A DNA stretch of 64,000 nucleotides from Fictibacillus enclensis. GTDB taxonomy: Bacteria > Bacillota > Bacilli > Bacillales > Fictibacillaceae. Positions within the stretch are counted from its first letter, which is position 1; each line of letters opens with the position of its first letter. The translations under genes were made by a program, and so were the position numbers. Positions 5,464 to 62,949 of the stretch are shown piece by piece. Below the pieces are notes generated by a model. The model worked only from the letters and a program-made list of their open reading frames with translations. It had not been told where the DNA came from and made no database searches. The DNA is taken from contig NZ_KQ758618.1 of the NCBI RefSeq assembly GCF_001457035.1, forward strand, positions 186,001 to 250,000. The letters run 5' to 3'.

Positions 5464-5474
5464 GGTGATAACAA

Positions 5475-8351
5475 GTGTCTACGAAACAAAACATTACGGT
5501 GAAGGGTGCACGCGCTCATAACCTGAAAAATATAGATATTACGATTCCTCGTGATAAGCTCGTGGTTCTGACAGGACTGTCAGGATCGGGGAAATCCTCG
5601 CTTGCTTTCGATACCATTTATGCCGAGGGGCAGCGACGCTATGTCGAGTCCCTCTCAGCCTACGCGAGGCAGTTCCTTGGGCAGATGGACAAGCCGGATG
5701 TTGACTCCATTGAGGGCCTTTCTCCCGCTATTTCCATCGACCAGAAAACAACGAGCAGAAACCCCCGTTCCACAGTAGGAACGGTCACAGAGATTTACGA
5801 TTATTTACGGCTTCTGTTTGCCAGGATCGGGCGGCCGGTCTGTCCGAATCATGGCATTGAAATTACCTCTCAGACCATTGAACAGATGGTTGACCGCATT
5901 CTCGAATATCCTGAACGCACCAAGCTCCAAATTTTGGCTCCGGTCGTTTCCGGGCGAAAAGGAGAGCATGTCAAAATTCTTGAGGATATCAAGAAGCAGG
6001 GCTATGTTCGTGTTCGAGTGGACGGAGAGCTTTTGGATGTCAGCGAAGACATTAAGCTTGAGAAGAATAAGAAGCATTCCATCGATGTGGTTGTCGACCG
6101 GATTGTAGTGAAGGAAGGAATCGCCACCCGGCTGGCGGATTCGCTTGAGACGGCATTGAATTTGGCAGGCGGAACGGTAACGGTAGATGTCATGGGAGAA
6201 GAAGAGCTTTTGTTCTCTCAAAACCATGCGTGTCCGTATTGCGGATTCTCCATTGGGGAACTTGAGCCAAGATTATTCTCCTTCAACAGCCCATTCGGAG
6301 CCTGCCCATCATGCGACGGACTCGGAATGAAACTGGAGGTCGATCCGGAACTCGTCATTCCGGACTGGGACCTGACGCTAAATGAAAATGCCATTGCACC
6401 CTGGACGCCTGTAAGTTCACAATATTATCCGCAGCTTCTGAAAAGCGTGTGCACTCACTTTGGCATCGATATGGATGTTCGCGTAAAGGATCTGCCAAAA
6501 GATCAGCTTGATAAAATTTTATATGGCGGCGATACGGAGCGAATCCGGTTCCGCTATAAAAATGATTTCGGGCAGGTTAAAACGAGCGATATCTACTTTG
6601 AAGGAGTACTTGCGAACGTAGAACGCCGTTACAAAGAGACAGGTTCGGATTACATCCGTGAGCAGATGGAAGGCTACATGGGCCAAAAAGCATGTCCGAC
6701 CTGCAAAGGATACCGTTTGAAAAAAGAGGCGCGGGCTGTGTTAATTAATGGTCAGCATATTGGTGAAGCGACAGCGCTGTCCGTGACCGAAGCCAAGGAA
6801 TTTTTCGAGAACCTCGATCTTACCAACAAAGAACGCGCGATCGCCCGTCTTATTCTTCGTGAGATCGTTGACCGGATCGGATTCCTCGTTAACGTCGGCC
6901 TTGATTATCTGTCCTTGAACCGCGCGGCAGGAACATTGTCCGGTGGAGAGGCACAGCGAATCCGTCTGGCCACACAGGTAGGTTCAAGGCTGATGGGTGT
7001 GTTGTATATTCTCGATGAACCGTCCATCGGACTTCATCAGCGGGACAATGACCGGCTGATCCGTACGCTTGAAGAAATGAGAAGCCTCGGAAATACGCTG
7101 ATCGTTGTCGAACATGATGAGGACACCATGCTGGCGGCCGATTATATTATCGATATTGGCCCTGGAGCAGGTGCCCATGGTGGAACGATTACGGCACAGG
7201 GCTCGCCGAATGAAATTATGGATGATCCAAATTCCCTGACCGGGCAATATCTGTCAGGCAAACGTTTTATTCCGCTCCCGTCCCAAAGAAGGAAGCCGGA
7301 CGGAAGGAACATTGAAATTGTGGGAGCTACCGAAAATAACCTTAAAAACGTAAAAATAAAAATTCCATTGGGGCTCTTTACCGGAGTAACCGGTGTTTCC
7401 GGTTCAGGAAAAAGTACGCTCGTCAATGAAATTCTTCATAAGGCATTGGCCCAGAAGCTTCATAAAGCGAAAGTAAAACCGGGGCAGCATAAGGAAATCA
7501 AAGGGCTGGAGCATATTGACAAGGTTATTGATATCGACCAGTCCCCGATCGGACGAACTCCTCGTTCCAATCCGGCAACCTATACCGGTGTGTTCGATGA
7601 CATCCGCGATGTATTTGCCTCTTCCAACGAAGCAAAGGTTCGCGGCTACAAAAAGGGCCGGTTCAGCTTCAATGTAAAAGGCGGCCGCTGTGAAGCGTGC
7701 CGCGGGGATGGGATCATTAAAATTGAGATGCATTTCCTGCCGGACGTGTATGTGCCATGTGAAGTTTGCCATGGAAAACGCTATAACCGTGAAACACTGG
7801 AAGTGAAATACAAAGGAAAAAATATTGCGGATATCCTGGATATGACAGTGGAAGAAGGGGTTGAATTCTTCGCCAACATTCCAAAGATCAACCGCAAGCT
7901 GTCCACCATCCTTGATGTCGGATTAGGATACATCAAGCTGGGCCAGTCCGCGACTACCCTTTCCGGAGGAGAAGCACAGCGGGTGAAGCTTGCTTCCCAG
8001 CTTCATAAGCGTTCAACGGGTAAAACGATCTATATCCTTGATGAACCGACAACAGGACTGCACGTTGATGACATTTCACGTTTGCTCAAGGTGCTTCAGC
8101 GCCTTGTGGATAACGGAGATTCCGTCGTCGTGATCGAGCATAATCTGGATGTTATCAAACAATGTGACTACTTGATTGACCTCGGACCGGAAGGCGGAGA
8201 TAAAGGCGGTACCCTCGTGGGTGCAGGAACGCCCGAAAAGCTTGCCGAGGTTGCCGAATCTCATACCGGCCGTTATTTGGCGCCGATTTTAAAACGTGAT
8301 AAAAAGCGAATGGAAACATTGCTGAAACAAAGAGAATCAGTAACAAAATAA
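5475..8351 (+). CDS. uvrA: UvrABC excinuclease subunit A
   Basis: 958 aa, full length. UvrA is the dimeric damage-recognition ATPase that delivers UvrB to lesions. It has two ABC-type ATPase modules: Walker A GLSGSGKS near residues 31-38 and GVSGSGKS near 640. LSGGEAQR signatures occur in both halves, with ILDEPSIGL and ILDEPTTGL Walker B segments. Zinc-binding Cys pairs are visible ([32 protein letters not shown]). Start GTG 5475 follows AAGGTGAT. It is cotranscribed with uvrB from the LexA-controlled promoter, and a strong terminator follows. Confidence 0.97.
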
Positions 8352-24296: not shown

Positions 24297-24529
24297 GTCC
24301 CTTCACTGGCCGAATTGGGCGTAATTTTGGATAATTGGGCGCAAACTGATAATATTTGAGCATAAATTAAATTAATTGGGCGAAAAAGCAACATATTCGA
24401 GCAAAACTGAATTCAAACTACTTCCCTGTCCCACATTCCTAAAACAATTTCAAAAATATGTTAAATTTGTACTTGTATTCACCTGCCCAATACACTAAAC
24501 TAGTGAGAAAACAATTTCGTGAAAAGTAA

Positions 24530-24763
24530 TGAGAGGAACGAGTAGTAGCGGTCTCCCTGTTTTAGAGAGCCGGTGGCAGGTGCAAACCGGTACAAAGACC
24601 CTTATGAATTACCTCCTCGAACTTTCTTTGTGAACGTCCGGTCCTGCGGATCGTAGCAAGGAACGGCATGAACCGTTATTTCTCCAAGTGGAAGCGATGC
24701 TTCAACAAGGGTGGTACCGCGTGAAAAACCACGTCCCTTTTATACAGGGATGTGGTTTTTTTA
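24530..24763 (+). promoter_or_regulatory. T-box riboswitch of tyrS
   Basis: A leader of about 230 bases ending in the conserved T-box segment GTGGAAGC...AAGGGTGGTACCGCG (24689-24722). It is followed directly by a terminator, AAAACCACGTCCCT / AGGGATGTGGTTTTTTT (24724-24763). The AGTAGTAG stretch near 24540-24548 fits the AGUA loop of stem I. A TAC triplet in GAATTACCTC (24610-24612) is the likely specifier codon, matching the downstream tyrosyl-tRNA synthetase. Uncharged tRNA-Tyr would stabilise the antiterminator. The 5' boundary is approximate. Confidence 0.9.
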
Positions 24764-46238: not shown

Positions 46239-46240
46239 CC

Positions 46241-46268
46241 TTTTCATTTTACGGCAAAGCGTTATAAT
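46241..46268 (+). promoter_or_regulatory. candidate promoter of the B12 cluster
   Basis: TTTTCA (46241-46246), 16 bases, TATAAT (46263-46268), just before the riboswitch. Confidence 0.5.
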
Positions 46269-46282
46269 GAAAATAGCTGAAT

Positions 46283-46483
46283 AACGGTTAAGGTCCGTTT
46301 TATGTCAAATAAAACGTTAAAAGGGAAGCTGGTTCAATCCCAGCACGGTCCCGCCACTGTAATCGGTAGAGCTTCTTTTATATCCACTGTTCGTTAAAGA
46401 ATGGGAAGGAGAAGATGTTCGATGACCGAGAGTCAGGAGACCTGCCTTAGCCGCATGTGCGATCCTTCGAGGAAAAGGTGAAG
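46283..46483 (+). promoter_or_regulatory. cobalamin (B12) riboswitch aptamer
   Basis: Conserved core elements in order: GGTTAAGGTCC near the 5' side, GGGAAGCTGGTTCAATCCCAGCACGG, the B12-box CCGCCACTGTAA (46351-46362), then GAGTCAGGAGACCTGCC (46430-46446). The terminator downstream forms the expression platform. Adenosylcobalamin binding should shut off the downstream genes. The boundaries are approximate. Confidence 0.93.
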
Positions 46484-46520
46484 CAATTGTAATCATTGAA
46501 AAATGAGTTACTGTTGATTC

Positions 46521-46544
46521 GCTCTCCGAAGGGAGGGCTTTTTT
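46521..46544 (+). terminator. riboswitch-controlled terminator
   Basis: GCTCTCC-GAAG-GGAGGGC followed by TTTTTTG, between the aptamer and btuF. Confidence 0.85.
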
Positions 46545-46595
46545 GTTTGCACAAAACGATCAGCTAAAAGAAGTACATACAGGAGCGTGGAAAAC

Positions 46596-47555
46596 GTGAA
46601 GAAATTAACTCAGATTACCATGATGCTGCTGCTCGTCATCGCCGTCATGGCCGGCTGTTCAGCCGGAAACCAGTCAGCAGACAAAAAAGAAAAGGGTGCC
46701 AATTCACCAAAAAGTGAATTCCCCGTAACCATTAAAGATGCATCAGGCGAAAATGTAAAAATTGAGAAGAAGCCAAAGAAAATTGTCTCGCTGATTCCGA
46801 GCAATACCGAGGTCGCATTTGCACTCGGTCTGGACAAGGAAATCGTCGGTGTTTCTGACTTCGATAATTATCCGGAAGCTGCCACAAAAAAAACGAAGAT
46901 TGGCGGCATGGACTTTAACGTCGAAAAGATTGTTGGCATGAAACCGGATCTTGTGCTTGCTCATGCTTCAAGTGCACACACTTCCAAGCAAGGAATCGAC
47001 CAGCTCAAAAACGCTGGTATAAAAGTTGTTGTAATTAATGAAGCACAGAACTTTCAAGACACGTACAAGTCCATAAACATGATTGCAAAAGCAACAGGCA
47101 CCCAAAAACAGGGGGATAAGATCGTTAAGTCCATGAAGGATGATCTTGCCGACATCAAAGAAAAAGCAAAGCAAGTGAAAAAGGAAAAGAAAGTCTGGGT
47201 GGAAGTGGCACCGGCTCCTGAAATTTATACAGCAGGCAAAGGAACGTTCATTGATGATATGCTGACCGCCATCCATGCAAAAAATGCCGCGGGAAGCCTG
47301 AAGGGGTGGTCAAAGGTATCAGAAGAACAGCCGGTCAAATACAATCCCGATGTGATCGTGACCACGTACGGATATTATTCCAAAAATCCGAAAGAGCAGA
47401 TTCTCTCCCGTAAAGGATGGAAAGACATTCCGGCTGTTAAAAACAAGAACATTTATGATGTGCACTCAGACAAGGTGACAAGACCGGGGCCGCGTTTGAT
47501 TGAAGGAGTGGAGGAGCTTGCAAAAGCCATCTATCCGGACGTATACAAAAAGTAA
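46596..47555 (+). CDS. btuF: cobalamin/corrinoid ABC transporter substrate-binding lipoprotein
   Basis: 319 aa. A lipoprotein signal peptide ends in VMAGCSAG (lipobox Cys near residue 21). A spacer rich in K/S follows, then a periplasmic-binding fold of the BtuF/TroA helical-backbone class (IVSLIPSNTEVAFALGLDKEIVGVSDFDNYPE). GTG 46596 is chosen because AGGAG (46581-46585) is 10 bases upstream; GTG 46587 is only one base from it. It captures vitamin B12 or cobinamide for the BtuCD transporter; the B. subtilis counterpart is YvrC. Confidence 0.9.
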   Translation: MKKLTQITMMLLLVIAVMAGCSAGNQSADKKEKGANSPKSEFPVTIKDASGENVKIEKKPKKIVSLIPSNTEVAFALGLDKEIVGVSDFDNYPEAATKKTKIGGMDFNVEKIVGMKPDLVLAHASSAHTSKQGIDQLKNAGIKVVVINEAQNFQDTYKSINMIAKATGTQKQGDKIVKSMKDDLADIKEKAKQVKKEKKVWVEVAPAPEIYTAGKGTFIDDMLTAIHAKNAAGSLKGWSKVSEEQPVKYNPDVIVTTYGYYSKNPKEQILSRKGWKDIPAVKNKNIYDVHSDKVTRPGPRLIEGVEELAKAIYPDVYKK

Positions 47556-48582
47556 ACTAATTATTTCATATGGCGCAGTGCTGCTGTTATTGTGCTTCGC
47601 CGTTGCATTGGGGATTTCGGTAGGTTCCATACCTATCCCCCTTTTTCATGTTATTCAAATATTAGGCGCCCATATTTTTCACTATCCTGTTCCCGATAAT
47701 ATTGATACATCGATGGTCAACATCGTCATGGCGATCCGGTTTCCGCGGGTCGTGCTGGCCATGCTCGTGGGATGTGCGCTGGCACTTTCCGGCACGGCGT
47801 TTCAGGGATTGCTGAAGAACCCGCTGGCTGATCCGTATACGCTCGGTGTGTCGTCAGGCTCGGCACTCGGGGCGGTTATTGTCTTATTCTTTGGTATTCA
47901 GCTGCCGTTTCTTGGCAGTTTTACGCTGCCGGTTTTCAGCATTATCATGGGGTTTCTTACATTGATCGGTGTAATTTATTTTGCGAGGCTTGTACAGCAA
48001 AACCTTTCTGTTGAGACCATCATCCTGGCCGGGGTGTTATGCAGTTCCTTTCTCGGGGCGGTCACGTCACTGTTGATTGCTTTAACCGGAGATGAACTGA
48101 GACAGATCATCGGCTGGCTGCTAGGCAGTGTTTCGATGAGAGGCTGGGCCTATGTAGAACTGATTGCTCCCTTTTTAATCGCAGGATTGCTGATTCTGCT
48201 GGCAAGCGCGCGTGAACTTAACGCGCTATCATTCGGTCAGCAGGATGCCAGGTCCATTGGAGTTGATGTTAAAAAACATACGGGGCTTGTTTTGTTTGGA
48301 GCTTCGCTTCTGACAGGGTCGGCCGTCGCTGTGTCGGGGACCATTGGGTTTGTCGGTCTTGTAATACCCCATATGGCCCGCATGATCTGGGGAGTTGATC
48401 ATCGCCATCTGCTTCCGCTTTCCATGATGCTTGGAGGCGTGTTTATGGTTTTGGTTGATTTACTGGCGCGGACCATTATTTCACCGACAGAACTTCCTAT
48501 CGGTGTACTGACCGCCATTATCGGAAGTCCGATTTTTGCGGTAATCTTTATTCGTTATCGGCGAAAGAAGGTGACTACATGA
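47518..48582 (+). CDS. btuC: cobalamin ABC transporter permease
   Basis: 354 aa FecCD/BtuC-family permease with about ten hydrophobic segments. Signatures RFPRVVLAMLVGCALALSGTAFQGLLKNPLADPYTLG and GTIGFVGLVIPHMARM are present. TTG 47518 is chosen with AAGGAG (47503-47508) 9 bases upstream, inside btuF, so the genes overlap by 38 bases. An alternative in-frame TTG lies at 47500. Confidence 0.92.
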   Translation: MQKPSIRTYTKSKLIISYGAVLLLLCFAVALGISVGSIPIPLFHVIQILGAHIFHYPVPDNIDTSMVNIVMAIRFPRVVLAMLVGCALALSGTAFQGLLKNPLADPYTLGVSSGSALGAVIVLFFGIQLPFLGSFTLPVFSIIMGFLTLIGVIYFARLVQQNLSVETIILAGVLCSSFLGAVTSLLIALTGDELRQIIGWLLGSVSMRGWAYVELIAPFLIAGLLILLASARELNALSFGQQDARSIGVDVKKHTGLVLFGASLLTGSAVAVSGTIGFVGLVIPHMARMIWGVDHRHLLPLSMMLGGVFMVLVDLLARTIISPTELPIGVLTAIIGSPIFAVIFIRYRRKKVTT

Positions 48583-50045
48583 TTAGCGTACAACAGCTTT
48601 CCGGAGGCTACGACGGCAAAAAGGTTGTGGACGATCTCTCGTTTTCCGTGGAGAAAGGGAAAATTACCGGGATTATCGGACCGAACGGAAGCGGAAAGAC
48701 AACGCTCATGAAAATGATCAATGGAATGCTTCCGTTTCAGTCAGGTGAAGTGTTGATCAAAGACAAACCGATCAGCAGCTATTCCGCCAAGGAACTGGCA
48801 AGAATTATCGCCGTATTGCCGCAGCATGCCGAGAGTTCGTTTGATTTTACGGTAAGAGAGGTCGTGGCGCTTGGACGCTATCCGTTTTATAAAGGATTAT
48901 TAAAACATTCAACACCACATGACGATGAAGTGGTTCAAAACTCCATGGAATTTACAGGGGTTGAGGAGTTTGCGGATAAAAGTATCCTGCTGTTGAGCGG
49001 CGGAGAGCGGCAGCGTGTTCTGTTGGCCAAGGCGCTCGCACAAGAGCCTGAAATTTTGCTGCTGGATGAACCGACCAACCATCTGGATTTGGCCTATCAA
49101 ATGAAACTGATGGATCTGTTAAAGGATTGGGTGGAAGGCTGCCAGCTGACGGTCGTGGCCATTCTTCATGACCTGAATATTGCCAGTCTGTATTGTGACC
49201 AGGTTCTTCTTCTGGATAAAGGGAAAATGAAGGCGATTGGAAAGCCTGGTGACATTATGGACAGCAGGATGCTTCAATCGGTATATAAGACGAACTTAAG
49301 CCGGCAGGAACATCCGCAAAAGGCAAAGCCGCTCATTGCGCTCGTTCCCCGGCAGCAGGACGAACGGAAGGACCTGTCTGAGATTGTCCTCGAGGCTACA
49401 CCTGAAACCATGATTTTTCGCAGTCCGTTCTCGTTAAAAACCATGTCATCTGCTCTCATCGGGGGAGGATATCAGTGGGCTAACACATTTGTGAACCGCC
49501 ATGTGAACAAAAATTATAATGTGGATGATGCCCAAAAAGAATTTGAGGATTATCTGTTTTCCATTTCTCTCAATCCAAACGATACCGTTGGCATGATGAC
49601 AGCGGCGAGGCTTCAGGATGCTGGAATGGTATCGGTCGAAGAAAAAGGTGTAAAACTGCTTGTCGCCTCCACTGTGGGAACAGGTAATGCGGTGGATGCG
49701 GGACGATCGTGGGAACGGAAGGATCAGCCCATGCCCATTGGTACGATCAATATCTGGATTTTCATGGAGGGTAAGCTGACGGACGAAGGCTTTGTTCAGG
49801 CGATGATGACGGCGACAGAAGCCAAAGCGGGGGCACTCCGCGACTATGGCATTAAAGATCCGGTAACAGGAACTCCAGCGACCGGTACATCGACCGACAG
49901 TGTTTGTATTGCCGCAACCCAAAACGGAGAGGAAATGAGGTATGCGGGGACGATCACACCGGCAGGAAAAGCGATTGGAAAAGCGGTCTATCAAACGGTA
50001 GGAACCGCTATTGAAAACTATAGAAAGAGAATGCTGCAACCATGA
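48579..50045 (+). CDS. btuD: cobalamin ABC transporter ATPase fused to adenosylcobinamide amidohydrolase CbiZ
   Basis: 488 aa fusion. Residues 1-240 are an ABC ATPase: Walker A GPNGSGKT near 34-41, Q-loop LPQH, LSGGERQRVLLAKAL, Walker B ILLLDEPTNHLDL, H-loop ILHD. From about residue 260 the CbiZ domain follows (SALIGGGYQWANTFVNRHV, STVGTGNAVDAG, TGTPATGTSTDSVCIA). CbiZ cleaves the aminopropanol arm of adenosylcobinamide or pseudocobalamin to yield adenosylcobyric acid, so the importer carries its own remodelling enzyme. The same fusion occurs in B. subtilis YvrA. It overlaps btuC by 4 bases (ATGA). Confidence 0.93.
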   Translation: MISVQQLSGGYDGKKVVDDLSFSVEKGKITGIIGPNGSGKTTLMKMINGMLPFQSGEVLIKDKPISSYSAKELARIIAVLPQHAESSFDFTVREVVALGRYPFYKGLLKHSTPHDDEVVQNSMEFTGVEEFADKSILLLSGGERQRVLLAKALAQEPEILLLDEPTNHLDLAYQMKLMDLLKDWVEGCQLTVVAILHDLNIASLYCDQVLLLDKGKMKAIGKPGDIMDSRMLQSVYKTNLSRQEHPQKAKPLIALVPRQQDERKDLSEIVLEATPETMIFRSPFSLKTMSSALIGGGYQWANTFVNRHVNKNYNVDDAQKEFEDYLFSISLNPNDTVGMMTAARLQDAGMVSVEEKGVKLLVASTVGTGNAVDAGRSWERKDQPMPIGTINIWIFMEGKLTDEGFVQAMMTATEAKAGALRDYGIKDPVTGTPATGTSTDSVCIAATQNGEEMRYAGTITPAGKAIGKAVYQTVGTAIENYRKRMLQP

Positions 50046-51004
50046 TGATTGCTTTACATTTACTGTCGATTGTTCTTGCTCTGATCATTGACCAGCTGAT
50101 CGGTGATCCCCGCTGGCTGCCGCATCCGGTGAAAGGGTTCGGCAAGATGATCAGCCGGCTGGACCGGGCATTGAACAGAGGAAACTATAAAAAGCTGAAG
50201 GGGCTCTTCATGCTCTTTCTTATTTTGGCTATAACTCTGGCACTCTCATTTTTTCTTATTTTCTTTGCGTATTCGGTTCATATGATTTTAGGTGTTTGTC
50301 TCGAGTCTATTCTGATTTCTACGACCATAGCAGCAAGAGGGCTGAAAGAGGCAGGGCGTTCCGTTTATGACCCGCTTGTCCGCGGAGATCTGGAGGAAGC
50401 CAGAACGAAATTAAGCTGGATTGTGGGAAGAGACACACAAGGCCTTCCTTCTCAGGAAATAGTGAGAGGTGTGGTGGAAACCGTGGCAGAGAATACGAGC
50501 GATGGCGTAACTGCCCCGCTTTTCTTTGCTTTTATCGGCGGGGCTCCGCTTGCCTTGCTGTACCGGGCCGTAAATACATGCGATTCCATGGTAGGCTACA
50601 AGAATGACAGATACAAAGACTTTGGCTGGGCATCGGCCAGGCTGGATGATGTGCTGAATTATATCCCTGCCCGTCTTACAGCGTTTTTGATGGTCTTTCA
50701 TGCAATGATGAAGAAGCGTCTGACGTTTGCCTGGCTGAAGGAAGAAGCCCGTCACCATCCGAGTCCCAACAGCGGCTGGGGAGAAGCAGCTGTTGCCGGG
50801 CTGCTGGGCATACGGCTCGGAGGAACCAATTATTATAATGGCCTGGTATCTTATCGCCCGTTCATCGGCCGGGCACAATACAGCCTGAAACCGATACATA
50901 TTGAAAAGACGATCGTCATCATGCAGCAAGCAGTCACATGGTTCACGATTATATTACTTGCAGCGGGAGGGATCTATATTGTTGCTGCCCAATCATGGAG
51001 CTAA
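50042..51004 (+). CDS. cbiB: adenosylcobinamide-phosphate synthase CbiB
   Basis: 320 aa membrane protein. Signatures: DQLIGDPRWLPHPVKGFGKMI at the N-terminus, ETVAENTSDGVTAPLFFAFIGGAPLALLYRAVNTCDSMVGYKN in the middle, and HPSPNSGWGEAAVAGLLGIRLGG near the C-terminus. It joins adenosylcobyric acid to aminopropanol phosphate, the step after CbiZ. It overlaps btuD by 4 bases. Confidence 0.94.
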   Translation: MMIALHLLSIVLALIIDQLIGDPRWLPHPVKGFGKMISRLDRALNRGNYKKLKGLFMLFLILAITLALSFFLIFFAYSVHMILGVCLESILISTTIAARGLKEAGRSVYDPLVRGDLEEARTKLSWIVGRDTQGLPSQEIVRGVVETVAENTSDGVTAPLFFAFIGGAPLALLYRAVNTCDSMVGYKNDRYKDFGWASARLDDVLNYIPARLTAFLMVFHAMMKKRLTFAWLKEEARHHPSPNSGWGEAAVAGLLGIRLGGTNYYNGLVSYRPFIGRAQYSLKPIHIEKTIVIMQQAVTWFTIILLAAGGIYIVAAQSWS

Positions 51005-52064
51005 CCCGGAGCTGCTGGCCCGATCGCTTCAGACTGAACTGAAGGAAAACAGCCTGGATTTTAGTGTGAACGTTAATCCGTATCCTCCGCTCGTCAATCT
51101 CAAGGAGGTTTGGGGATCTCTTTATGAAGAGATCCTTCACTATCCCCATCCATCTGCAGCTCCCTTTTTGCAATTGGCAGCGGAAATGGCCGGGCTCGGT
51201 CCAGAACAGGTTCTGGCAGGAAATGGAGCGGCAGAGCTTATTTTTCTCATCGCCCAAGCTTACAGAGGCGCCAATGTGCTGATTATTGAACCTGCGTTTT
51301 CAGAATACAGAGAAGCATGTGAAGCGAATGGATGCAAGGTTGAGAGTTTTATAACGCAGGAGGAATCAAAATGGGGGATTTCTTTTGAGGAATTAGAAAA
51401 ATCCCTTGAAGGCAAACAGCTTTGTTTTCTGTGCCAGCCCAATAATCCAACAGGAACTGCTCTTGATTCAGTTGAATTGGAAAAGCTTTTGCAACTTTGT
51501 TCAGAGAAAAAGGTGACCCTGGTTGTCGATGAAGCGTTTGTTCATTTCATGGAAAATCCGGTAACTGCTGTGCCTTTACTGGCTCATTTTAACAATTTGA
51601 TCCTACTGCGTTCCTTAACAAAGATGTTTCACTTGCCCGGTCTGCGGCTCGGCTACGCCATGTCGTCCCTAGATTTGATTTTAAAAATGAAGAAATACCA
51701 GCCACCGTGGAGTGTAAACGGACCGGCTCAAAAAATCGGGATGCTTTGTGTTGCGCAGGAAAAACCAATTGCTGCTGATATTGCTGAAAAGACGGCAAAC
51801 GAACGAAACCGGCTGTTTCCTGTCTTGCGCCGCCTGGGCTTCGAGCCCTCTCCTTCTCTAGTTAATTTTTATTTGTTACGAGAAAAGGGAGAAGAAAAGG
51901 ACCAGATGGACCTGATTAAGTATTTACTCTCAAGAAGGATTATTGTCAGGCATACCTTCAATTTTAACGGCCTGGAAGGAAGATTTATCCGTCTGGCGAT
52001 CCGGACGCCCGAGGAAAATGATGTGCTGCTGGATGTTCTTGAAGGGTGGAATGCATCATGCTGA
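50979..52064 (+). CDS. cobD: threonine-phosphate decarboxylase CobD (class I/II aminotransferase fold)
   Basis: 361 aa PLP enzyme resembling HisC. The N-terminal LPNHGANPELLARSL and DFSVNVNPYPP are typical of CobD, and the PLP lysine is in RSLTKMFHLPGLRLGY. It makes aminopropanol phosphate for CbiB. TTG 50979 is chosen because GGGAGGG (50965-50971) is 7 bases upstream; longer frames from 50901 lie inside cbiB. It overlaps cbiB by 26 bases. A histidinol-phosphate aminotransferase role is possible from fold alone, since hisC is missing from the his operon, but the context favours CobD. Confidence 0.85.
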   Translation: MLLPNHGANPELLARSLQTELKENSLDFSVNVNPYPPLVNLKEVWGSLYEEILHYPHPSAAPFLQLAAEMAGLGPEQVLAGNGAAELIFLIAQAYRGANVLIIEPAFSEYREACEANGCKVESFITQEESKWGISFEELEKSLEGKQLCFLCQPNNPTGTALDSVELEKLLQLCSEKKVTLVVDEAFVHFMENPVTAVPLLAHFNNLILLRSLTKMFHLPGLRLGYAMSSLDLILKMKKYQPPWSVNGPAQKIGMLCVAQEKPIAADIAEKTANERNRLFPVLRRLGFEPSPSLVNFYLLREKGEEKDQMDLIKYLLSRRIIVRHTFNFNGLEGRFIRLAIRTPEENDVLLDVLEGWNASC

Positions 52065-52660
52065 TTTTTATAACTGGAGGCGTGAGAAGCGGAAAGAGCT
52101 CATTTGCTGAAATGGTAGCGGTATACCACGGCAATAAAGGGTACCGCCTTCATTATGTCGCCACATGCGACCAAAGTGGAGAGGAGATGGCCGAGCGCAT
52201 CAACCGGCACAGGGAGGACCGTGAGAAAAGCGGGTACGCTTGGAAAACGTGGGAACAGCCCAGGAATATTCATGACTTGTGCACCGTTTTTAAACAAGAG
52301 GAAGTGATCCTGCTCGACTGTTTAACCAATCTTGTCAGCAATGAGCTTTTTGACGGGTGGCAGGAAAATAGGAAACAGTGGGAAGGGATTGCGTTTCGGG
52401 AATTGGTTTTTCAAAAAATCATGGATGCAATCATTGAGCTGGAGAAGCAATGCGGAGTCCTGATTATCGTTTCCAATGAAGTGTTTCAAGGCCTGCTGCC
52501 CGATGACAGCGGAACGTTTTACTTTATGCAGATAATGGGGCATCTGCATCAGCATATTGTGAGGCAAGCCCACTGGGTGTACCAGGTAGAGTTTGGCATG
52601 CCGATTTTACGCAAAGGATATGATGCGGATGAAAACCAATGCACAGCCTGTACGGTTTAG
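52058..52660 (+). CDS. cobU: adenosylcobinamide kinase / cobinamide-phosphate guanylyltransferase
   Basis: 200 aa. Walker A GGVRSGKS is at residues 7-14, the guanylylated-His motif RINRHREDR at about 45-53, and Walker B VILLDCLTNLVSNEL near 88. It phosphorylates and then GMP-activates adenosylcobinamide. ATG 52058 follows GAAGGGTGG; it overlaps cobD by 7 bases. Confidence 0.92.
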   Translation: MLIFITGGVRSGKSSFAEMVAVYHGNKGYRLHYVATCDQSGEEMAERINRHREDREKSGYAWKTWEQPRNIHDLCTVFKQEEVILLDCLTNLVSNELFDGWQENRKQWEGIAFRELVFQKIMDAIIELEKQCGVLIIVSNEVFQGLLPDDSGTFYFMQIMGHLHQHIVRQAHWVYQVEFGMPILRKGYDADENQCTACTV

Positions 52661-53441
52661 CTCATTGTACGGCTTGGGGCTGGCTTTGCAGTTTTTAACG
52701 GCCTTCCCTATTCGGACAGCGTTCCCGTGGACGAAGGAAACAAGTAAATGGAGCGTGTACTGGTATCCGGTTGTTGGCCTGCTGCTCGGCGGATTAACTG
52801 CCGTTCAGGCGCATTTTCTGAGTCAGCAATCGTTCATATCTCCCTTGATGGTCAGTTTTTATTTATTCAGTTTTTCTGTCGCATTAACAGGTGGACTGCA
52901 TCTCGACGGATGGATGGATTGCAGTGATGCCTATTTTTCATACGGAAGTAAAGAAAAAAGGCTGGAAATCATGAAGGATCCGAGGACCGGGGCATTTGGC
53001 GTTGTATCCGTCCTATTTCTGCTGAGCTGGCGTTTTCTGTTGATCTACGAAAGCCTGAGGATTGCACCTGAGAAGAGCTGGCTGCTGTTTCTGCTCATTC
53101 CGTTTCTGGCCCGTACCAGTATGGGCTGTCTGCTAATTTCTGCTCCCCTGGCTAAGGAGGAAGGCATGGCATTTGCCATAAAGCAGAATATTTCAAAAAT
53201 GAGCTTTGGAATGTACGCATTATATTTCTTGGGTGTGGGAGTCGGTTCATGGCTTGCAGGCATGCTTTTTTTATTTACGGGTCTGACGATCTTAGGAGCT
53301 TTATTTTTTCTTGTGAGCAAACGGTTTGCAACCATTGAGTTTGGCGGAATTACAGGAGACGCGCTTGGTGCGAGTTCAGAAGGGATGGAAACCGTATTAT
53401 GGCTCGGAGGGTGGCTGTTACTCTCCTTCGTCACGGGCTGA
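52629..53441 (+). CDS. cobS: adenosylcobinamide-GDP ribazoletransferase (cobalamin synthase)
   Basis: 270 aa polytopic membrane enzyme. FLTAFPIRTAFPW near residues 22-34, the metal-binding DGWMDCSDAYFSYGSKEKRLEIMKDPRTGAFG, and GGITGDALGASSE near the C-terminus are CobS signatures. It attaches alpha-ribazole phosphate to the activated corrinoid. ATG 52629 is preferred (AAAGGA 10 bases upstream); nearby ATGs at 52620 and 52623 are alternatives. It overlaps cobU by 32 bases. Confidence 0.92.
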   Translation: MKTNAQPVRFSSLYGLGLALQFLTAFPIRTAFPWTKETSKWSVYWYPVVGLLLGGLTAVQAHFLSQQSFISPLMVSFYLFSFSVALTGGLHLDGWMDCSDAYFSYGSKEKRLEIMKDPRTGAFGVVSVLFLLSWRFLLIYESLRIAPEKSWLLFLLIPFLARTSMGCLLISAPLAKEEGMAFAIKQNISKMSFGMYALYFLGVGVGSWLAGMLFLFTGLTILGALFFLVSKRFATIEFGGITGDALGASSEGMETVLWLGGWLLLSFVTG

Positions 53442-54028
53442 CGCTGGAGAATCAGCAAAAGAAATACATTGGATACAGTGATCCTCTTCTTTGCGAAGAG
53501 GGTAGGAATGAATTGAGAGAAATGCAGGAAAAGGAAAGCTTTTTACCTTCAGATGTGGTCCTTTCAAGTGACCGGAAACGGTGCCTGGAGACCGCAGAAA
53601 TTCTTTTTCCAGGCCAGCAGATCATCACGAGTCCGGCACTTCAGGAGATCCATTTTGGCGAATGGGAAAATCAAACGTATAAAGAGCTTTGTCATGACCG
53701 CCACTACAGAGAATGGATTGATGATCCATTTGGAACATGCCCCCCCGGGGGAGAGCATTTTCATGAATTTGAAAAACGTCTGCTTTCAGTATGGGAAGAG
53801 GAGATCTGGCCATTGGCGGAGCAAAACGGACATGTGACAGTGGTCACCCATGGCGGTCCGGTCCGCTTGTATTTATCGATGTTTGCTCCTGAACCAAAAG
53901 AAATGTGGGAGTGGAGTGTTTCCCATGGAAGAGGGTACACACTGGTTTGGAAAGAAAACAAAGGGAGGTTAAATGCATTATGCACTTTGTTACAGGAGGC
54001 GCCTTCCACGGTAAAGCCAAGTGGGTGA
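53399..54028 (+). CDS. cobC: adenosylcobalamin / alpha-ribazole phosphatase CobC (histidine phosphatase)
   Basis: 209 aa. The phosphohistidine motif LLRHGLT is near residue 11, with EIHFGEWE, PPGGEHFHEFEKR and VVTHGGPVRLYL. It removes the phosphate from adenosylcobalamin phosphate or alpha-ribazole phosphate. Start ATG 53399 is kept, although GTG 53411 is possible. It overlaps cobS by 43 bases, which implies translational coupling. Confidence 0.88.
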   Translation: MARRVAVTLLRHGLTLENQQKKYIGYSDPLLCEEGRNELREMQEKESFLPSDVVLSSDRKRCLETAEILFPGQQIITSPALQEIHFGEWENQTYKELCHDRHYREWIDDPFGTCPPGGEHFHEFEKRLLSVWEEEIWPLAEQNGHVTVVTHGGPVRLYLSMFAPEPKEMWEWSVSHGRGYTLVWKENKGRLNALCTLLQEAPSTVKPSG

Positions 54029-54408
54029 TGGAAACCTATTCAGCCTCGAGGAAGATGGAGGGCTGGTTTAATCTGTATGATGCCGTGTGCCCAGAGGCCG
54101 ATGAGTTCAAAACTTCGCTTGTCGTACTAGAAGGAATGGAGCAGTTGGTGAAGAAGGTTGTACAAGCGAATAAAAAGGGAACAAGAGAAGTGCTTAAGAA
54201 AAAATTGCATGCCTGGCTGGAATGGGAATCAGCCCTGCCTGGCCGCCGGCTTGTTTTGGTTGGAACAGACATCGGAAAAGGCATAGTGCCGATGGAGGAA
54301 GAAAACAGGAGATGGCGTGATGTTTCCGGCTGGTTTTTTCAAGATTGTGCGATGGCGGCTGAGAAAGTGCATGTGGTCTGGTATGGGTTGGAACAGACGA
54401 TAAAATAA
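53980..54408 (+). CDS. short CobU-like protein with degenerate P-loop
   Basis: 142 aa. Start MHFVTGGAFHGKAKWV aligns with the CobU P-loop but reads GGAFHGKA instead of GGxRSGKS, and the guanylylated-His motif HRxxR is missing. The end, GTDIGKGIVPMEEENRRWRDVSGWFFQDCAMAAEKVHVVWYGLE, matches the CobU C-terminus closely. So it is a shortened CobU paralogue in which the GTP-transfer chemistry may be lost. ATG 53980 with GGGAGG (53963-53968). It overlaps cobC by 49 bases. It may modulate or complement CobU. Confidence 0.75.
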   Translation: MHFVTGGAFHGKAKWVMETYSASRKMEGWFNLYDAVCPEADEFKTSLVVLEGMEQLVKKVVQANKKGTREVLKKKLHAWLEWESALPGRRLVLVGTDIGKGIVPMEEENRRWRDVSGWFFQDCAMAAEKVHVVWYGLEQTIK

Positions 54409-54423
54409 AAGGAGATGATCGGA

Positions 54424-55011
54424 ATGAAGCTTTACACACGTACTGGAGATGAAGGAAAAACAAGTGTGATCGGAGGCCGGCTGGATAAAAACCATATCCG
54501 TGTTAATGCCTATGGAACACTGGATGAGCTGAACAGCTTTGTTGGGGTGGCCGTTACAAAGCTCCAGGATGCCAAGTATGACGATATCCGGAACGAACTG
54601 GTGAAGATCCAGCATGAGTTGTTTGACTGCGGCGGCGATCTTTCAGCTGTAAAAAAGGATTATCCATATAAAGCAAACACCGACATGATCACCTTTTTGG
54701 AAGAGCGCATTGATGAATACATTAAAGAAGCTCCAGAGCTGGAACGCTTCATTCTTCCGGGAGGTTCAGAGGCTTCAGCCGCGATTCATGTTTGCCGTAC
54801 AGTAGCAAGGCGGGGAGAGCGGGAAATTGTGGCGCTGAAGCAGGAGAATGAAATCAACCCGGTTGTTTTAAAATATGTGAACCGCTTATCCGATTACTTT
54901 TTTGCCATTGCCCGGGTGATTAATTTCCGCGAAGGAGTAAAGGACGTGGAGTACGAACGAAGTGCGATCGTTTTCCGTGGAGGCAAGCGAAAAGAAAATG
55001 ACACGAAATAA
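54424..55011 (+). CDS. pduO: PduO-type ATP:cob(I)alamin adenosyltransferase
   Basis: 195 aa. N-terminal KLYTRTGDEGKTSVIGGRLDKNHIRVNAYGTLDELNSFVG and C-terminal CRTVARRGEREIVALKQE...VLKYVNRLSDYFFAIAR are PduO/EutT signatures. It adds the 5'-deoxyadenosyl group to the corrinoid, producing the form used by CbiB, CobU and CobS. ATG 54424 is 9 bases after GGAG. B. subtilis counterpart: YvqK. Confidence 0.94.
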   Translation: MKLYTRTGDEGKTSVIGGRLDKNHIRVNAYGTLDELNSFVGVAVTKLQDAKYDDIRNELVKIQHELFDCGGDLSAVKKDYPYKANTDMITFLEERIDEYIKEAPELERFILPGGSEASAAIHVCRTVARRGEREIVALKQENEINPVVLKYVNRLSDYFFAIARVINFREGVKDVEYERSAIVFRGGKRKENDTK

Positions 55012-55501
55012 ACATATCGCGCTGTTTACGGCGTTTGTTTCTCTGGCAGTAGCCGGTTCGTTTATCAAAATTCCTTCTCCAATAGGCAGTGTGGCCTTTG
55101 ATTCCATGCCCGCCCTGGCTGCGGCTGCGTTAATGTCGCCATGGTCGGGGCTTGCTGTTGCCTGTTTTGGGCATTTGCTAACAGCCGCCCTGGCCGGTTT
55201 TCCTTTGGGACCGCTCCATTTAGTGGTAGCGGTTCAGATGGGACTCCTGGGCTTCTTTTATGGCGTGCTATACAGAAAAAATGCGAAAACCGCTGCCACA
55301 TTGATGTTTATAACAGGAAATGGTGTCCTGGCTCCGCTCTGCTTCTGGACTGTTTTGGGAAAAGCGGTCGTTCTCGGACTTATCCCAAGTCTGCTGGCTG
55401 CTGCTGTGCTGAATGGTTTGACCGCACTTGTAATCATCCCGCGAATAAAGCGGTCGTTCCGGCATTCTGCCATGAGGATCAACCATGAAAAGAAATCGTG
55501 A
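54998..55501 (+). CDS. cblT: ECF-type S component, probable alpha-ribazole transporter CblT
   Basis: 167 aa with about five to six hydrophobic segments. ALFTAFVSLAVAGSFIKIPSPIGSVAFDSMPALAAAALMSPWSGLAVACFGHLLTAALAGFPLGPLH is an S-component pattern. ATG 54998 overlaps pduO by 14 bases, with GGAGG at 54979. Because it sits directly before a PurM-like kinase in a corrinoid cluster, it is assigned to the CblT role described in Listeria and Geobacillus. A cobalamin S component such as CbrT is the alternative. Confidence 0.6.
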   Translation: MTRNKHIALFTAFVSLAVAGSFIKIPSPIGSVAFDSMPALAAAALMSPWSGLAVACFGHLLTAALAGFPLGPLHLVVAVQMGLLGFFYGVLYRKNAKTAATLMFITGNGVLAPLCFWTVLGKAVVLGLIPSLLAAAVLNGLTALVIIPRIKRSFRHSAMRINHEKKS

Positions 55502-56201
55502 TATAACCGTGCAGGGCTTTGGCTCTGGGCATGTGGCGGTGATTGCCGCGGATAACTCTGGGGGAATTGGCAGCCTTCCGATGGATGAGGTAAAGGTCCC
55601 TTATGAGGTAGTCGCCCAGTATGGCGCCCGGGTCTGCGCGATGGAAGTGCTGGCTGCCGGGGCACTGCCCGTTTCGTTCATTATCCACTCCTTTAACGGT
55701 GAAGGGGCATGGAACGAGCTCGTGACAGGAGCACAAAAGACGTTTGCGGAGCTTGGTCTCGATACTATCGAAATCACGGGAAGCTCCGAAAGCAATATGA
55801 ACATGGTCCAGTCCGCTTCTTCTTTCACAATGATCGGCAGGGCGGCTCATCATGATTTGAAAATGGGAATCACGCCTTCAATTGCTAAAGTGGCGGTCAT
55901 AGGTGCGCCCCTTGTCGGGGAGGAAGTGATCAGCCGTTCTAAAGAGGGAATTTCATTATCTCTATTCCGGCAGCTGCTGAAAACAGACGGCATTTATGAA
56001 ATCCTGCCTGTCGGCTCCAAAGGCATTGGATACGAGCTCGGGGTACTGTGTGGTTCTTCGGCAAGGTTCAAGAGTACCCTGCCATTGGATAAGTCAGCCG
56101 GGCCATCTACATGCGTGCTAATCAGTTATGACGAAAAACAGCATTCCGCCATCAGAAGTTTGTGCGGAATGCTGTTTCATGAACTTGACCCATTATTTTA
56201 A
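55485..56201 (+). CDS. cblS: PurM-like (AIR synthase fold) kinase, probable alpha-ribazole kinase CblS
   Basis: 238 aa. N-terminal GSGHVAVIAADNSGGIGSLPMDEVKVPYEVVAQY carries the acidic metal/ATP segment of AIR-synthase-like proteins, and GSSESNM resembles the family loop before the second half. In Firmicutes lacking CobT, CblS phosphorylates salvaged alpha-ribazole to alpha-ribazole phosphate for CobS. Position next to the S component supports this. ATG 55485 follows GAGGAT. It overlaps cblT by 17 bases and, tail to tail, fetB by 9 bases. Confidence 0.65.
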   Translation: MKRNRDITVQGFGSGHVAVIAADNSGGIGSLPMDEVKVPYEVVAQYGARVCAMEVLAAGALPVSFIIHSFNGEGAWNELVTGAQKTFAELGLDTIEITGSSESNMNMVQSASSFTMIGRAAHHDLKMGITPSIAKVAVIGAPLVGEEVISRSKEGISLSLFRQLLKTDGIYEILPVGSKGIGYELGVLCGSSARFKSTLPLDKSAGPSTCVLISYDEKQHSAIRSLCGMLFHELDPLF

Positions 56202-56972
56202 TTGTGACCGCTCATTAAAAAACGTCCGGTAGCCATATTGAACAAAAAGGATGACGCTGAATGATACCGATCCGGCAATCCCCAGCATGATCGCAATCTG
56301 ATATTCAATCGCAGTGAGCGGGGAGATACCTGACAAAATCTGGCCGGTCATCATGCCTGGAAGAAATACGATTCCCATGCCGACCATCGAATTGATCGTG
56401 GGAAGAATGGCGGAATCAAACGCACGGTCGACGAGTTCTTTGGAAGCGGCTTTTGGAGTTGCCCCGAGCATCAAGGCTGCTTCCACCATGCGTTTTTGCT
56501 TTTTCATGCCCTCCACAAGGTGATTGACCCCAAGCGTTATCCCTGTCATGGCATTCCCAATGATCATCCCGGCAATCGGTATAACATACCTCGGCTCAAA
56601 CCAGGGAGAGAACTGAATGACCACATAGTTGAAAAATAGAAGGCTGACGAGAGTTCCTACTGTCATCGAAACAGCGATGACTTTTTTTAATGAAGAAGAT
56701 AAATCGTATTTGATCCGCTTAAAAACGTTATAGATTGCAAAAATTTCCATGAGAACGAAAATGAAAAGAGTCAGAAGGGGATGCGGGTGCTTGAATACAT
56801 AGGTGAGGATATACCCCGCGAGCACGAGCTGGATCGTCATTCTCAGGGTTCCGATGATAATCTCTTTTTCCCTCGCTATGCCTCTCCACTTCACAATCAC
56901 CGTCAATACCACGATAAAGAGATAGGCAGACAGAAGCTGCCACAACGAAATATCAATAATTTTATCGTTCAT
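56193..56972 (-). CDS. fetB: iron export-type ABC transporter permease FetB (UPF0014)
   Basis: 259 aa with about seven hydrophobic segments. The UPF0014 pattern IIGNAMTGITLGVNHLVEGMKKQKRMVEAALMLGATPKAA and FLPGMMTGQILSGISPLTAIEYQIAIMLGIAGS is clear. In E. coli FetAB exports iron and protects against oxidative stress. AAAGGAGG precedes ATG 56972, 19 bases after fetA. Confidence 0.92.
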   Translation of the reverse strand: MNDKIIDISLWQLLSAYLFIVVLTVIVKWRGIAREKEIIIGTLRMTIQLVLAGYILTYVFKHPHPLLTLFIFVLMEIFAIYNVFKRIKYDLSSSLKKVIAVSMTVGTLVSLLFFNYVVIQFSPWFEPRYVIPIAGMIIGNAMTGITLGVNHLVEGMKKQKRMVEAALMLGATPKAASKELVDRAFDSAILPTINSMVGMGIVFLPGMMTGQILSGISPLTAIEYQIAIMLGIAGSVSFSVILFVQYGYRTFFNERSQLK

Positions 56973-56991
56973 CAGCAGCCTCCTTTATTTT

Positions 56992-57609
56992 CTAATTGTA
57001 CCTTTCAAGATGTACCGGCACGTCAGCGTAACGGTCTGCAATTTGATTGGAGTGGGTGACTATGATGACCGTTCTATTCTTTTGTTTGGCCTTTTTTAAA
57101 AAAGATGAGATGACCTCATCCGCTGTTTCGTCATCAAGGGCGGATGATGGCTCGTCCAGCAGATAAACTTCCGCATCAAGCAAAAGAACCCGGGCCAGCG
57201 CAAGCCGCTGCTGCTCTCCGCCGGACAATCCCTCTGCATCTGTTTTTAATGATTTTCGTAAATGCACACTATGTAAAGCTTCTTCAAGCACTCGATCATC
57301 TGGCACCGCTTTCTCCGAGAACACCAGTCCGGCGACAAGATTATCTTTTACGGTGCCGGGAAATATGGCGGGCATTTGCTGAAGCATGATCACGTTTCTT
57401 CGATGCTGTACAGGATCAAGCGTGGCGATATCCTTCCCTTTGTAGAACACCTTGCCTTCATCCGGGCTGATCAGGTGATTCAGCAGTTTCAGCACCGTTG
57501 TTTTTCCGCTGCCGCTTTCTCCGGTAAGAATGCTCACTTTATTTTCTTCCATACGTAAATGACCAATCTTCAAAATATCTTTATAGCGAATCTCTTTTAG
57601 TTCAAACAT
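56992..57609 (-). CDS. fetA: iron export-type ABC transporter ATPase FetA
   Basis: 205 aa ABC ATPase. Walker A GESGSGKT near residues 31-38, Q-loop MLQQMP, signature LSGGEQQRLALARVL, Walker B VYLLDEPSSALDD, H-loop VIIVTHS. First gene of the minus-strand fetAB pair, with AAGGAGGCATT before ATG 57609. Confidence 0.92.
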   Translation of the reverse strand: MFELKEIRYKDILKIGHLRMEENKVSILTGESGSGKTTVLKLLNHLISPDEGKVFYKGKDIATLDPVQHRRNVIMLQQMPAIFPGTVKDNLVAGLVFSEKAVPDDRVLEEALHSVHLRKSLKTDAEGLSGGEQQRLALARVLLLDAEVYLLDEPSSALDDETADEVISSFLKKAKQKNRTVIIVTHSNQIADRYADVPVHLERYN

Positions 57610-62588: not shown

Positions 62589-62949
62589 GGGGACGTTACG
62601 GATTCGACAGGGGTAGTTCGAGCTTAAGTTGCGAGTCGAGGGGGTCGGCCTCGTTAAAACGCCAACGCCTATAACTGGCAAAACTAACAACAACCTAGCT
62701 TTAGCTGCGTAATAGCACTTTAGCTGATCCTCCCTCCATCGCCCATGTGGTAGGGTAAGGGTCTCACTCTTAGTGGGCTACGCCGGCTGTCCTCCGCCTG
62801 AGGACGAAGGAAGAGCGCAATCAGGCTAGCACTTCAAACGCCTGTCGATAGGCAGCTGAAGTCGCGAAACGCGAATCTATCGACTACACTCGTAGAAGCT
62901 TAAGTGCCGTTATCTTTGGACGTGGGTTCGACTCCCACCGTCTCCACCA
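62589..62949 (+). ncRNA. ssrA: transfer-messenger RNA (tmRNA)
   Basis: Starts GGGGACGTTACGGATTCGAC and ends with the tRNA-like GGGTTCGACTCCCACC...TCTCCACCA, whose termini pair as an Ala-type acceptor stem (GGGGACG / CGTCTCC). The tag reading frame at 62677-62712 encodes GKTNNNLALAA then TAA, so the degradation tag is (A)GKTNNNLALAA. It is shorter than the B. subtilis tag but keeps the C-terminal ALAA recognised by ClpXP. Confidence 0.96.

Follow-up and report, generated by a model that had tools for sequence, protein, structure and literature searches.

A run of twelve genes in Fictibacillus enclensis, extending from btuF to cblS (46587-56201), lies behind a cobalamin riboswitch in the 64,000-nucleotide stretch of DNA analyzed here (the window; positions 186001-250000 of contig C2). 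It is very probably a cobalamin-repressed operon for corrinoid uptake, remodelling, and nucleotide loop assembly in a genome predicted to make cobalamin de novo, with its last two genes, cblT and cblS, acting as an extra supply line for the lower ligand and not as a replacement for CobT. A cobT-bluB pair and a corrin-ring operon are present on a different contig, and it is because cobT-bluB coexists with cblTS that the CblT/CblS pair would be an additional source here.

Genome context and identity of CblT and CblS

The original prediction proposed that the cluster uses a CblT/CblS alpha-ribazole route instead of CobT and that no cobT or corrin gene is to be seen. The latter part is correct for the window, where cobT and CbiC are absent, and incorrect for the genome (an assembly of 4.5 Mb, 100% complete with 1% contamination), in which cobT and the corrin loci sit on contig C1 (2.04 Mb). 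A profile search of the genome places cobT at C1:47922-48917 with a TIGR03160 score of 442 bits against a cut-off of 319.3, which refutes the words "instead of CobT." The cobT product aligns over most of its length to the solved CobT structure (PDB code 1wx1, E 1e-73) and shares the LGEG(S/T)GA stretch, including the glutamate that we take to be catalytic. Directly downstream is bluB (TIGR02476, 246.7 bits against a cut-off of 150), the product of which matches the solved BluB structure (PDB code 2isj, E 8e-64) over most of its length, and a cobalamin riboswitch of 83 bits is placed upstream of the pair. The same contig carries a corrin-ring operon behind a 127.9-bit cobalamin riboswitch, with products assigned as CbiX, CbiJ, CbiC, CbiD, CbiG, CobB/CbiA, CobQ, SUMT, and BtuR together with four further tetrapyrrole methylases, one of which has an NIR_SIR domain; the first two open reading frames (ORFs) of this operon gave no Pfam match at E <= 1e-8. 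By analogy of order and domains with the Bacillus megaterium operon as given in the available passages of PMC8123684, the four methylases would correspond to CbiH60, CbiE/T, CbiL, and CbiF. The presence of cobT, bluB, and the corrin operon is the reason that the genome is predicted to encode de novo cobalamin synthesis with its own 5,6-dimethylbenzimidazole (DMB) synthesis and CobT.

The description of the cluster as led by a single riboswitch applies to the cluster and does not extend to the genome, which has four cobalamin riboswitches. The fourth (locus L008:4475-4675, on C1) is directly before a gene for a ribonucleoside-diphosphate reductase alpha subunit (4806-7073; NF006665, 1243 bits against 1057), an arrangement that would fit repression of a B12-independent reductase by B12.

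The last two genes of the run are credible homologues of CblT and CblS. When 72,556 plasmid records were searched by tblastn, the window CblS matched seven records, and the window CblT matched the identical seven, two of which are from Listeria monocytogenes and one of which is L. plantarum pMF1298-5. The window CblS is 29% identical to Listeria CblS over 231 amino acids (pairwise E 2e-24) and the window CblT shows 31% pairwise identity to Listeria CblT, both being compared with L. monocytogenes genes in its pdu/cob/cbi region. These are the same two families as in the alpha-ribazole salvage system of Listeria innocua reportedly described by Gray and Escalante-Semerena in 2010, and the L. monocytogenes genes are presumably orthologues of L. 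innocua cblT and cblS. In the one L. monocytogenes record examined, CblS is found directly before cobU-cobS-cobC and CblT before cbi genes, with cblT and cblS about 39 kb apart, whereas in the window the two are adjacent at the end of the salvage operon. A second difference is that cblTS coexists with cobT and bluB in the window genome, unlike the Listeria system as compared.

An alignment of 30 CblS sequences, including those of Listeria and L. plantarum, has 20 invariant columns, and the PurM-like AIRS domain is matched by 18 of the 30 family members (best E 9.4e-7). Foldseek matches to a model of CblS at E <= 0.001 number 18, and all are AIR synthetase or ThiL except two chains titled tt0281. 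CblT scores above the thresholds of two S component models of energy-coupling factor (ECF) transporters, PF12822 (39.4 bits against 30.7) and PF07155 (39.1 against 26.7). Among the five PF12822 loci of the genome, the CblT homologues of Listeria, L. plantarum, and Cytobacillus all select the window cblT. An EcfT gene is located elsewhere in the genome, which is relevant because an S component needs an ECF module. The neighbourhood of cblS consists of nucleotide loop genes and CblT, both in the window and in related regions. The names given to the two genes in the original prediction are therefore retained on the basis of the Listeria homology, the reciprocal best match of CblT, and the AIRS matches of the CblS family, with alpha-ribazole as the predicted substrate of both proteins.

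Several observations weigh against this assignment. The window CblS alone scores below the Pfam AIRS cut-off (12.3 bits against 24, E 0.24) and has no Pfam or NCBIfam match at E <= 0.1. The AlphaFold model used for Foldseek, built from three sequences, is poor, with a predicted local distance difference test score (pLDDT) of 47, so that its Foldseek matches carry little weight. Alignment of the CblS family to single sequences with hhalign is weak, giving a probability of 15.5% for PurM and 1.8% for ThiL, and in a PDB sequence search the single CblS found no match and the CblS alignment found only an unrelated chain (E 0.59). The scores of CblT with the general (39.4 bits) and riboflavin (39.1 bits) S component models are alike, its sole solved match is a riboflavin transporter (PDB code 3p5n, E 0.003), and its substrate is inferred from the neighbourhood and the weak Listeria match.

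CblS and CobT across the class

Searches for CblS, CobT, BluB (over its cut-off), and CbiC, the last serving as a marker of corrin synthesis, all covered one set of 398 genomes of the class and found them in 55, 195, 99, and 139 genomes, respectively. The CbiC-positive genomes comprise 19 with both CblS and CobT, 6 with CblS only, 114 with CobT only, and none with neither (Fisher p 2e-5), so that all six of the CbiC genomes without CobT carry CblS. The CbiC-negative genomes comprise none with both, 30 with CblS only, 62 with CobT only, and 167 with neither (Fisher p 1.9e-4). CobT is missing in 36 of the 55 CblS genomes, and the window genome is one of seven of the 398 that hold CblS, CobT, BluB, and CbiC together. 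In genomes without the corrin pathway CblS thus behaves like a functional substitute for CobT, a reading suggested by gene presence, because the two never occur together without CbiC and because CblS is found in every CobT-less CbiC genome; those CbiC genomes that have CblS mostly retain CobT as well. No statement on exclusion between CblS and CobT was found in the literature passages retrieved on the topic.

Some features of the survey reduce the weight of this pattern. The Fisher p values ignore relatedness among the genomes. In 15 of the 55 CblS genomes no CblT was detected beside CblS, and some of these 15 genes may not be CblS. Restriction to the 40 CblS genomes with an adjacent CblT leaves, among those with CbiC, 11 with both, 4 with CblS only, and 2 with neither (p 1.2e-3); three genomes then hold all four genes. 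In the CbiC-negative part of the restricted set, none of 25 CblS genomes has CobT (p 1e-3).

CblS-like genes for which no CblT was detected in the fetched stretch occur in L093, L102, L103, L105, L106, L143, L144, and L146-L153; some may belong to another PurM-like family or may have CblT elsewhere, as in Listeria. In one genus (g94) with ten genomes, five have CblS, the other five have CobT and BluB, and none has both, a possible case of recent exchange of the two routes.

The distribution bears on the rival explanations of the pair. That CblT and CblS are the only route of the organism to alpha-ribazole phosphate, in a salvager lacking CobT, is true of the window alone and would agree with the 36 CblS genomes of the class sample that have no CobT. 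The presence of cobT, bluB, and a corrin-ring operon in the same genome, with an assembly of such completeness and low contamination, makes this reading scarcely tenable, and it is rejected. It is also improbable, to a slightly lesser degree, that the pair consists of an S component and a PurM-like enzyme with no relation to CblT and CblS. The lack of any NCBIfam model, the lack of a significant Pfam match for the window CblS, and the fact that the substrate of an S component is unreadable from sequence would allow it; the Listeria homology, the reciprocal best match of CblT, the common gene neighbourhood, and the pattern of exclusion between CblS and CobT argue against it.

A further alternative is that CblS mainly recycles internal alpha-ribazole, arising from the action of CobC on alpha-ribazole phosphate or from loops released by CbiZ, with import by CblT being secondary. 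This would explain why cblTS is kept although the genome is predicted to encode both synthesis and activation of DMB, and it fits both the placement of cblTS in the same run of genes as cbiZ and cobC and the occurrence of CblS with CobT in 19 of the 25 CbiC-positive CblS genomes. Against it, the adjacency of an S component to CblS points to import, and Rhodobacter CbiZ cleaves pseudocobalamin and not cobalamin according to the available passages of PMC7733943, so that the released loops would carry adenine and not DMB. Recycling as the main role is accordingly considered rather unlikely, and the reading of cblTS as an extra supply line fed by import is preferred.

Two CobU-type genes

The window has two CobU-type genes with complementary losses of motifs. 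The product of the long gene, cobU (52046-52660; PF02283, E 1.4e-40), has retained both the P-loop (GGVRSGKS) and the RINRH segment and is without the C-terminal G(I/V)VP...R..RD..G motif. The product of the short gene, cobU2 (53980-54408; partial PF02283 match), has an altered P-loop (GGAFHGKA), lacks the guanylylation segment in the alignment, and has the C-terminal motif as GIVPMEEENRRWRD. Expressed as patterns, cobU2 has neither a Walker A with Ser/Thr (GGxxxGK[ST]) nor R[IV]xxH, and it does have G(I/V)VPx5RxxRDxxG. In the solved CobU structures (PDB codes 1c9k and 1cbu), which we take to be the Salmonella enzyme, the motifs are in one chain, whereas in the window they are divided between two genes; 1c9k contains the P-loop GGARSGKS, RIQHH, and GIVPENRLARHFRDIAG. 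The histidine of the R[IV]xxH segment presumably has the guanylylation role, as in Salmonella CobU. The window CobU aligns to residues 6-186 of the solved CobU (E 9e-21), and CobU2 aligns to the C-terminal stretch 128-177 (E 5e-4).

The three motifs were scored in 83 regions (the window, L018, L019, L068-L110, and L123-L159), which are related to each other and were mostly chosen for holding CblS. Two CobU-type genes are present in 47 regions, one in 9, and none in 27. In all 47 two-gene regions, of which the window is one, the long CobU has the P-loop with Ser/Thr (two as GAxxxGK[ST]) and the R(I/V)xxH pattern, and the C-terminal motif occurs in none of the long and all of the short proteins. 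The Ser/Thr of the P-loop is absent in 41 of the 47 CobU2 proteins, and only 2 of them have the R(I/V)xxH pattern. All three motifs are carried in five of the nine one-gene regions (the Listeria region L108, L129, L130, L132, and L144). The CobU of the other four (L134, L135, L136, and L142) is also without the C-terminal motif, which counts against a split enzyme unless another CobU-type gene is located beyond the fetched stretch. Gain of the GIVP...RD motif by CobU2 was considered and rejected, as the solved CobU and some one-gene CobU proteins have it, indicating retention. The cobU2 gene is also found in four CblS-free operons and therefore goes with the operon and not with cblTS.

The complementary losses suggest a divided enzyme, in which the long and short proteins would jointly perform the job of one CobU, for example as a mixed oligomer. 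This proposal, drawn from motif content, is tentative and has somewhat less than an even chance of being correct; the alternatives are that CobU2 is a non-catalytic partner or a short protein with a new function. No paper title on a short CobU family was found in the literature listing, which gave titles only. A Cytobacillus record annotates the short gene as bifunctional CobU, and if the split is true, such database names would be wrong. A divided CobU would also be a new arrangement of a well studied step.

Organization, conservation, and proposed working of the operon

The leader and genes of the operon are all on the plus strand. Promoter-like hexamers (TTTTCA-16-TATAAT, 46241-46268), a match to consensus only, precede the cobalamin riboswitch aptamer (46274-46463; RF00174, 124.4 bits against a gathering score of 31.5, E 8.6e-31). 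A sequence scan places an intrinsic terminator-like hairpin with a T run at 46521-46538, and in the predicted leader fold the loop and arms of this hairpin pair instead with upstream bases, as an antiterminator would. The twelve ORFs follow in the same direction, with overlaps between neighbours in 10 of 11 pairs by mechanical ORF limits, some starts being uncertain; the riboswitch and the co-directional, mostly overlapping arrangement are thus as first described.

The uptake genes are btuF, encoding a corrinoid-binding lipoprotein (46587-47555; PF01497, Peripla_BP_2, E 1.3e-38), the btuC permease (47500-48582; PF01032, FecCD, E 5.9e-91; best NCBIfam match NF007081 BtuC, below cut-off), the true start of which is probably later than the ORF start at 47500, and a btuD-cbiZ fusion (48579-50045) of an ATP-binding cassette (ABC) ATPase (PF00005, ABC_tran, residues 18-167) with an adenosylcobinamide amidohydrolase (PF01955, CbiZ, residues 286-474). 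These are followed by cbiB for adenosylcobinamide-phosphate synthase (50042-51004; CobD_Cbib; TIGR00380, 277.2 bits against 165.9) and cobD for threonine-phosphate decarboxylase (50901-52064, start uncertain; TIGR01140, 298.1 against 290.6). After cobU come cobS for adenosylcobinamide-GDP ribazoletransferase (52593-53441; TIGR00317, 114.6 against 110) and cobC for alpha-ribazole/cobalamin-phosphate phosphatase (53399-54028; His_Phos_1; best NCBIfam match TIGR03162, E 3.9e-37, below cut-off). A gene for a PduO-type corrinoid adenosyltransferase (54415-55011; PduO_Nterm; TIGR00636, 212.8 against 108.5) follows cobU2, and the run ends with cblT for an ECF S component and predicted alpha-ribazole transporter (54998-55501) and cblS for a PurM-like predicted alpha-ribazole kinase (55485-56201). 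The family matches bear out the gene content and the salvage and remodelling logic put forward originally.

Genes for a UPF0014 (FetB-like) permease and an ABC ATPase (56193-57609, minus strand) converge on the operon, and the last 9 bases of cblS are shared with the permease ORF. Elsewhere in the window are a T-box leader (24520-24741) and a transfer-messenger RNA gene (62589-62949) with the tag GKTNNNLALAA.

The suggestion that such a compact unit is uncommon was not sustained. When 40 CblS regions were fetched and scored for gene order and direction, 23 held the full set of BtuF, BtuC, BtuD, CbiZ, CbiB, CobD, CobU, CobS, CobC, CobU2, PduO, CblT, and CblS in the same order and direction; in some of these, additional DNA separates cobU from cobS. 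In seven of the other 17 regions the only genes missing are cbiB and cobD, in some cases together with cbiZ, or pduO, and the rest are without cblT or more. The riboswitch was found in 16 of the 19 regions scanned out of the 40 (absent in L101, L102, and L107), including all 12 complete regions scanned, and the Cytobacillus region also has one. The nearest named relative, Fictibacillus solisalsi, has a CblS 88% identical and the same operon. Of 20 CobT regions from CblS-free genomes, four (L124, L125, L127, and L128) have the same operon with CobT inside or beside it, no cblTS, and a riboswitch nearby. The operon is well conserved, common to many Bacillus relatives, and made of known parts.

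Parts of it resemble systems described in the available passages of several reports. The L. plantarum pMF1298-5 operon was named CblT, CblS, CobS, and CobC by its authors (PMC6722938), and in L. plantarum MF1298 cblT-cblS lies beside cobS-cobC (PMC5064896, PMC6167548, PMC6722938). Lactobacillus coryniformis is reported in the same passages to have a complete anaerobic corrin pathway and to lack cobT, whereas the window genome has cobT. For Bacillus (Priestia) megaterium (PMC8123684, PMC3573010), the reported gene order of the cobI operon is resembled by the C1 corrin operon, and the genes of the cbiB-cobDUSC operon make up the central part of the window operon (cbiB-cobD-cobU-cobS-cobC). The operon names reported in those passages do not include cblTS, in contrast to the window operon, and bluB is reported away from other cobalamin genes in B. 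megaterium, whereas it follows cobT in the window genome. Bacillus subtilis btuFCDR (PMC9600662) has btuF-btuC-btuD and an adenosyltransferase behind a cobalamin riboswitch as in the window, where CbiZ, the nucleotide loop genes, CobU2, CblT, and CblS are additional. A literature search found no paper mentioning both Fictibacillus and cobalamin.

Gene content, riboswitches, homology, and the cobT-bluB and corrin operon loci are read from the sequence, and from these we infer enzyme activities and the direction of regulation. At low cobalamin the leader would be read through, as expected for this riboswitch class. Corrinoids would be imported by BtuFCD and adenosylated by PduO, and the CbiZ fused to BtuD would cut unwanted or incomplete corrinoids (pseudo-cobamides and cobinamide) back to cobyric acid. 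CbiB and CobD would re-attach the aminopropanol-phosphate arm, CobU would activate the product, CobS would attach the lower-ligand nucleotide, and CobC would take the phosphate off. The nucleotide would have two sources. One is alpha-ribazole, taken up through CblT and then phosphorylated by CblS; the other is DMB, which BluB would make and CobT would activate, both enzymes being encoded by the separate riboswitch-led pair on the other contig. Import of alpha-ribazole would spare oxygen-dependent DMB synthesis.

Two findings here are new and of use, namely the pattern of exclusion between CblS and CobT and the division of complementary motifs between the two CobU-type genes. A prediction is also corrected, since finding cblTS within a salvage operon is no sign that a genome lacks CobT. 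The class sample provides a simple, testable rule that CblS and CobT are exclusive without CbiC and are mostly both kept in CblS genomes with CbiC, and this rule bears on predicting the lower ligand of a bacterium.

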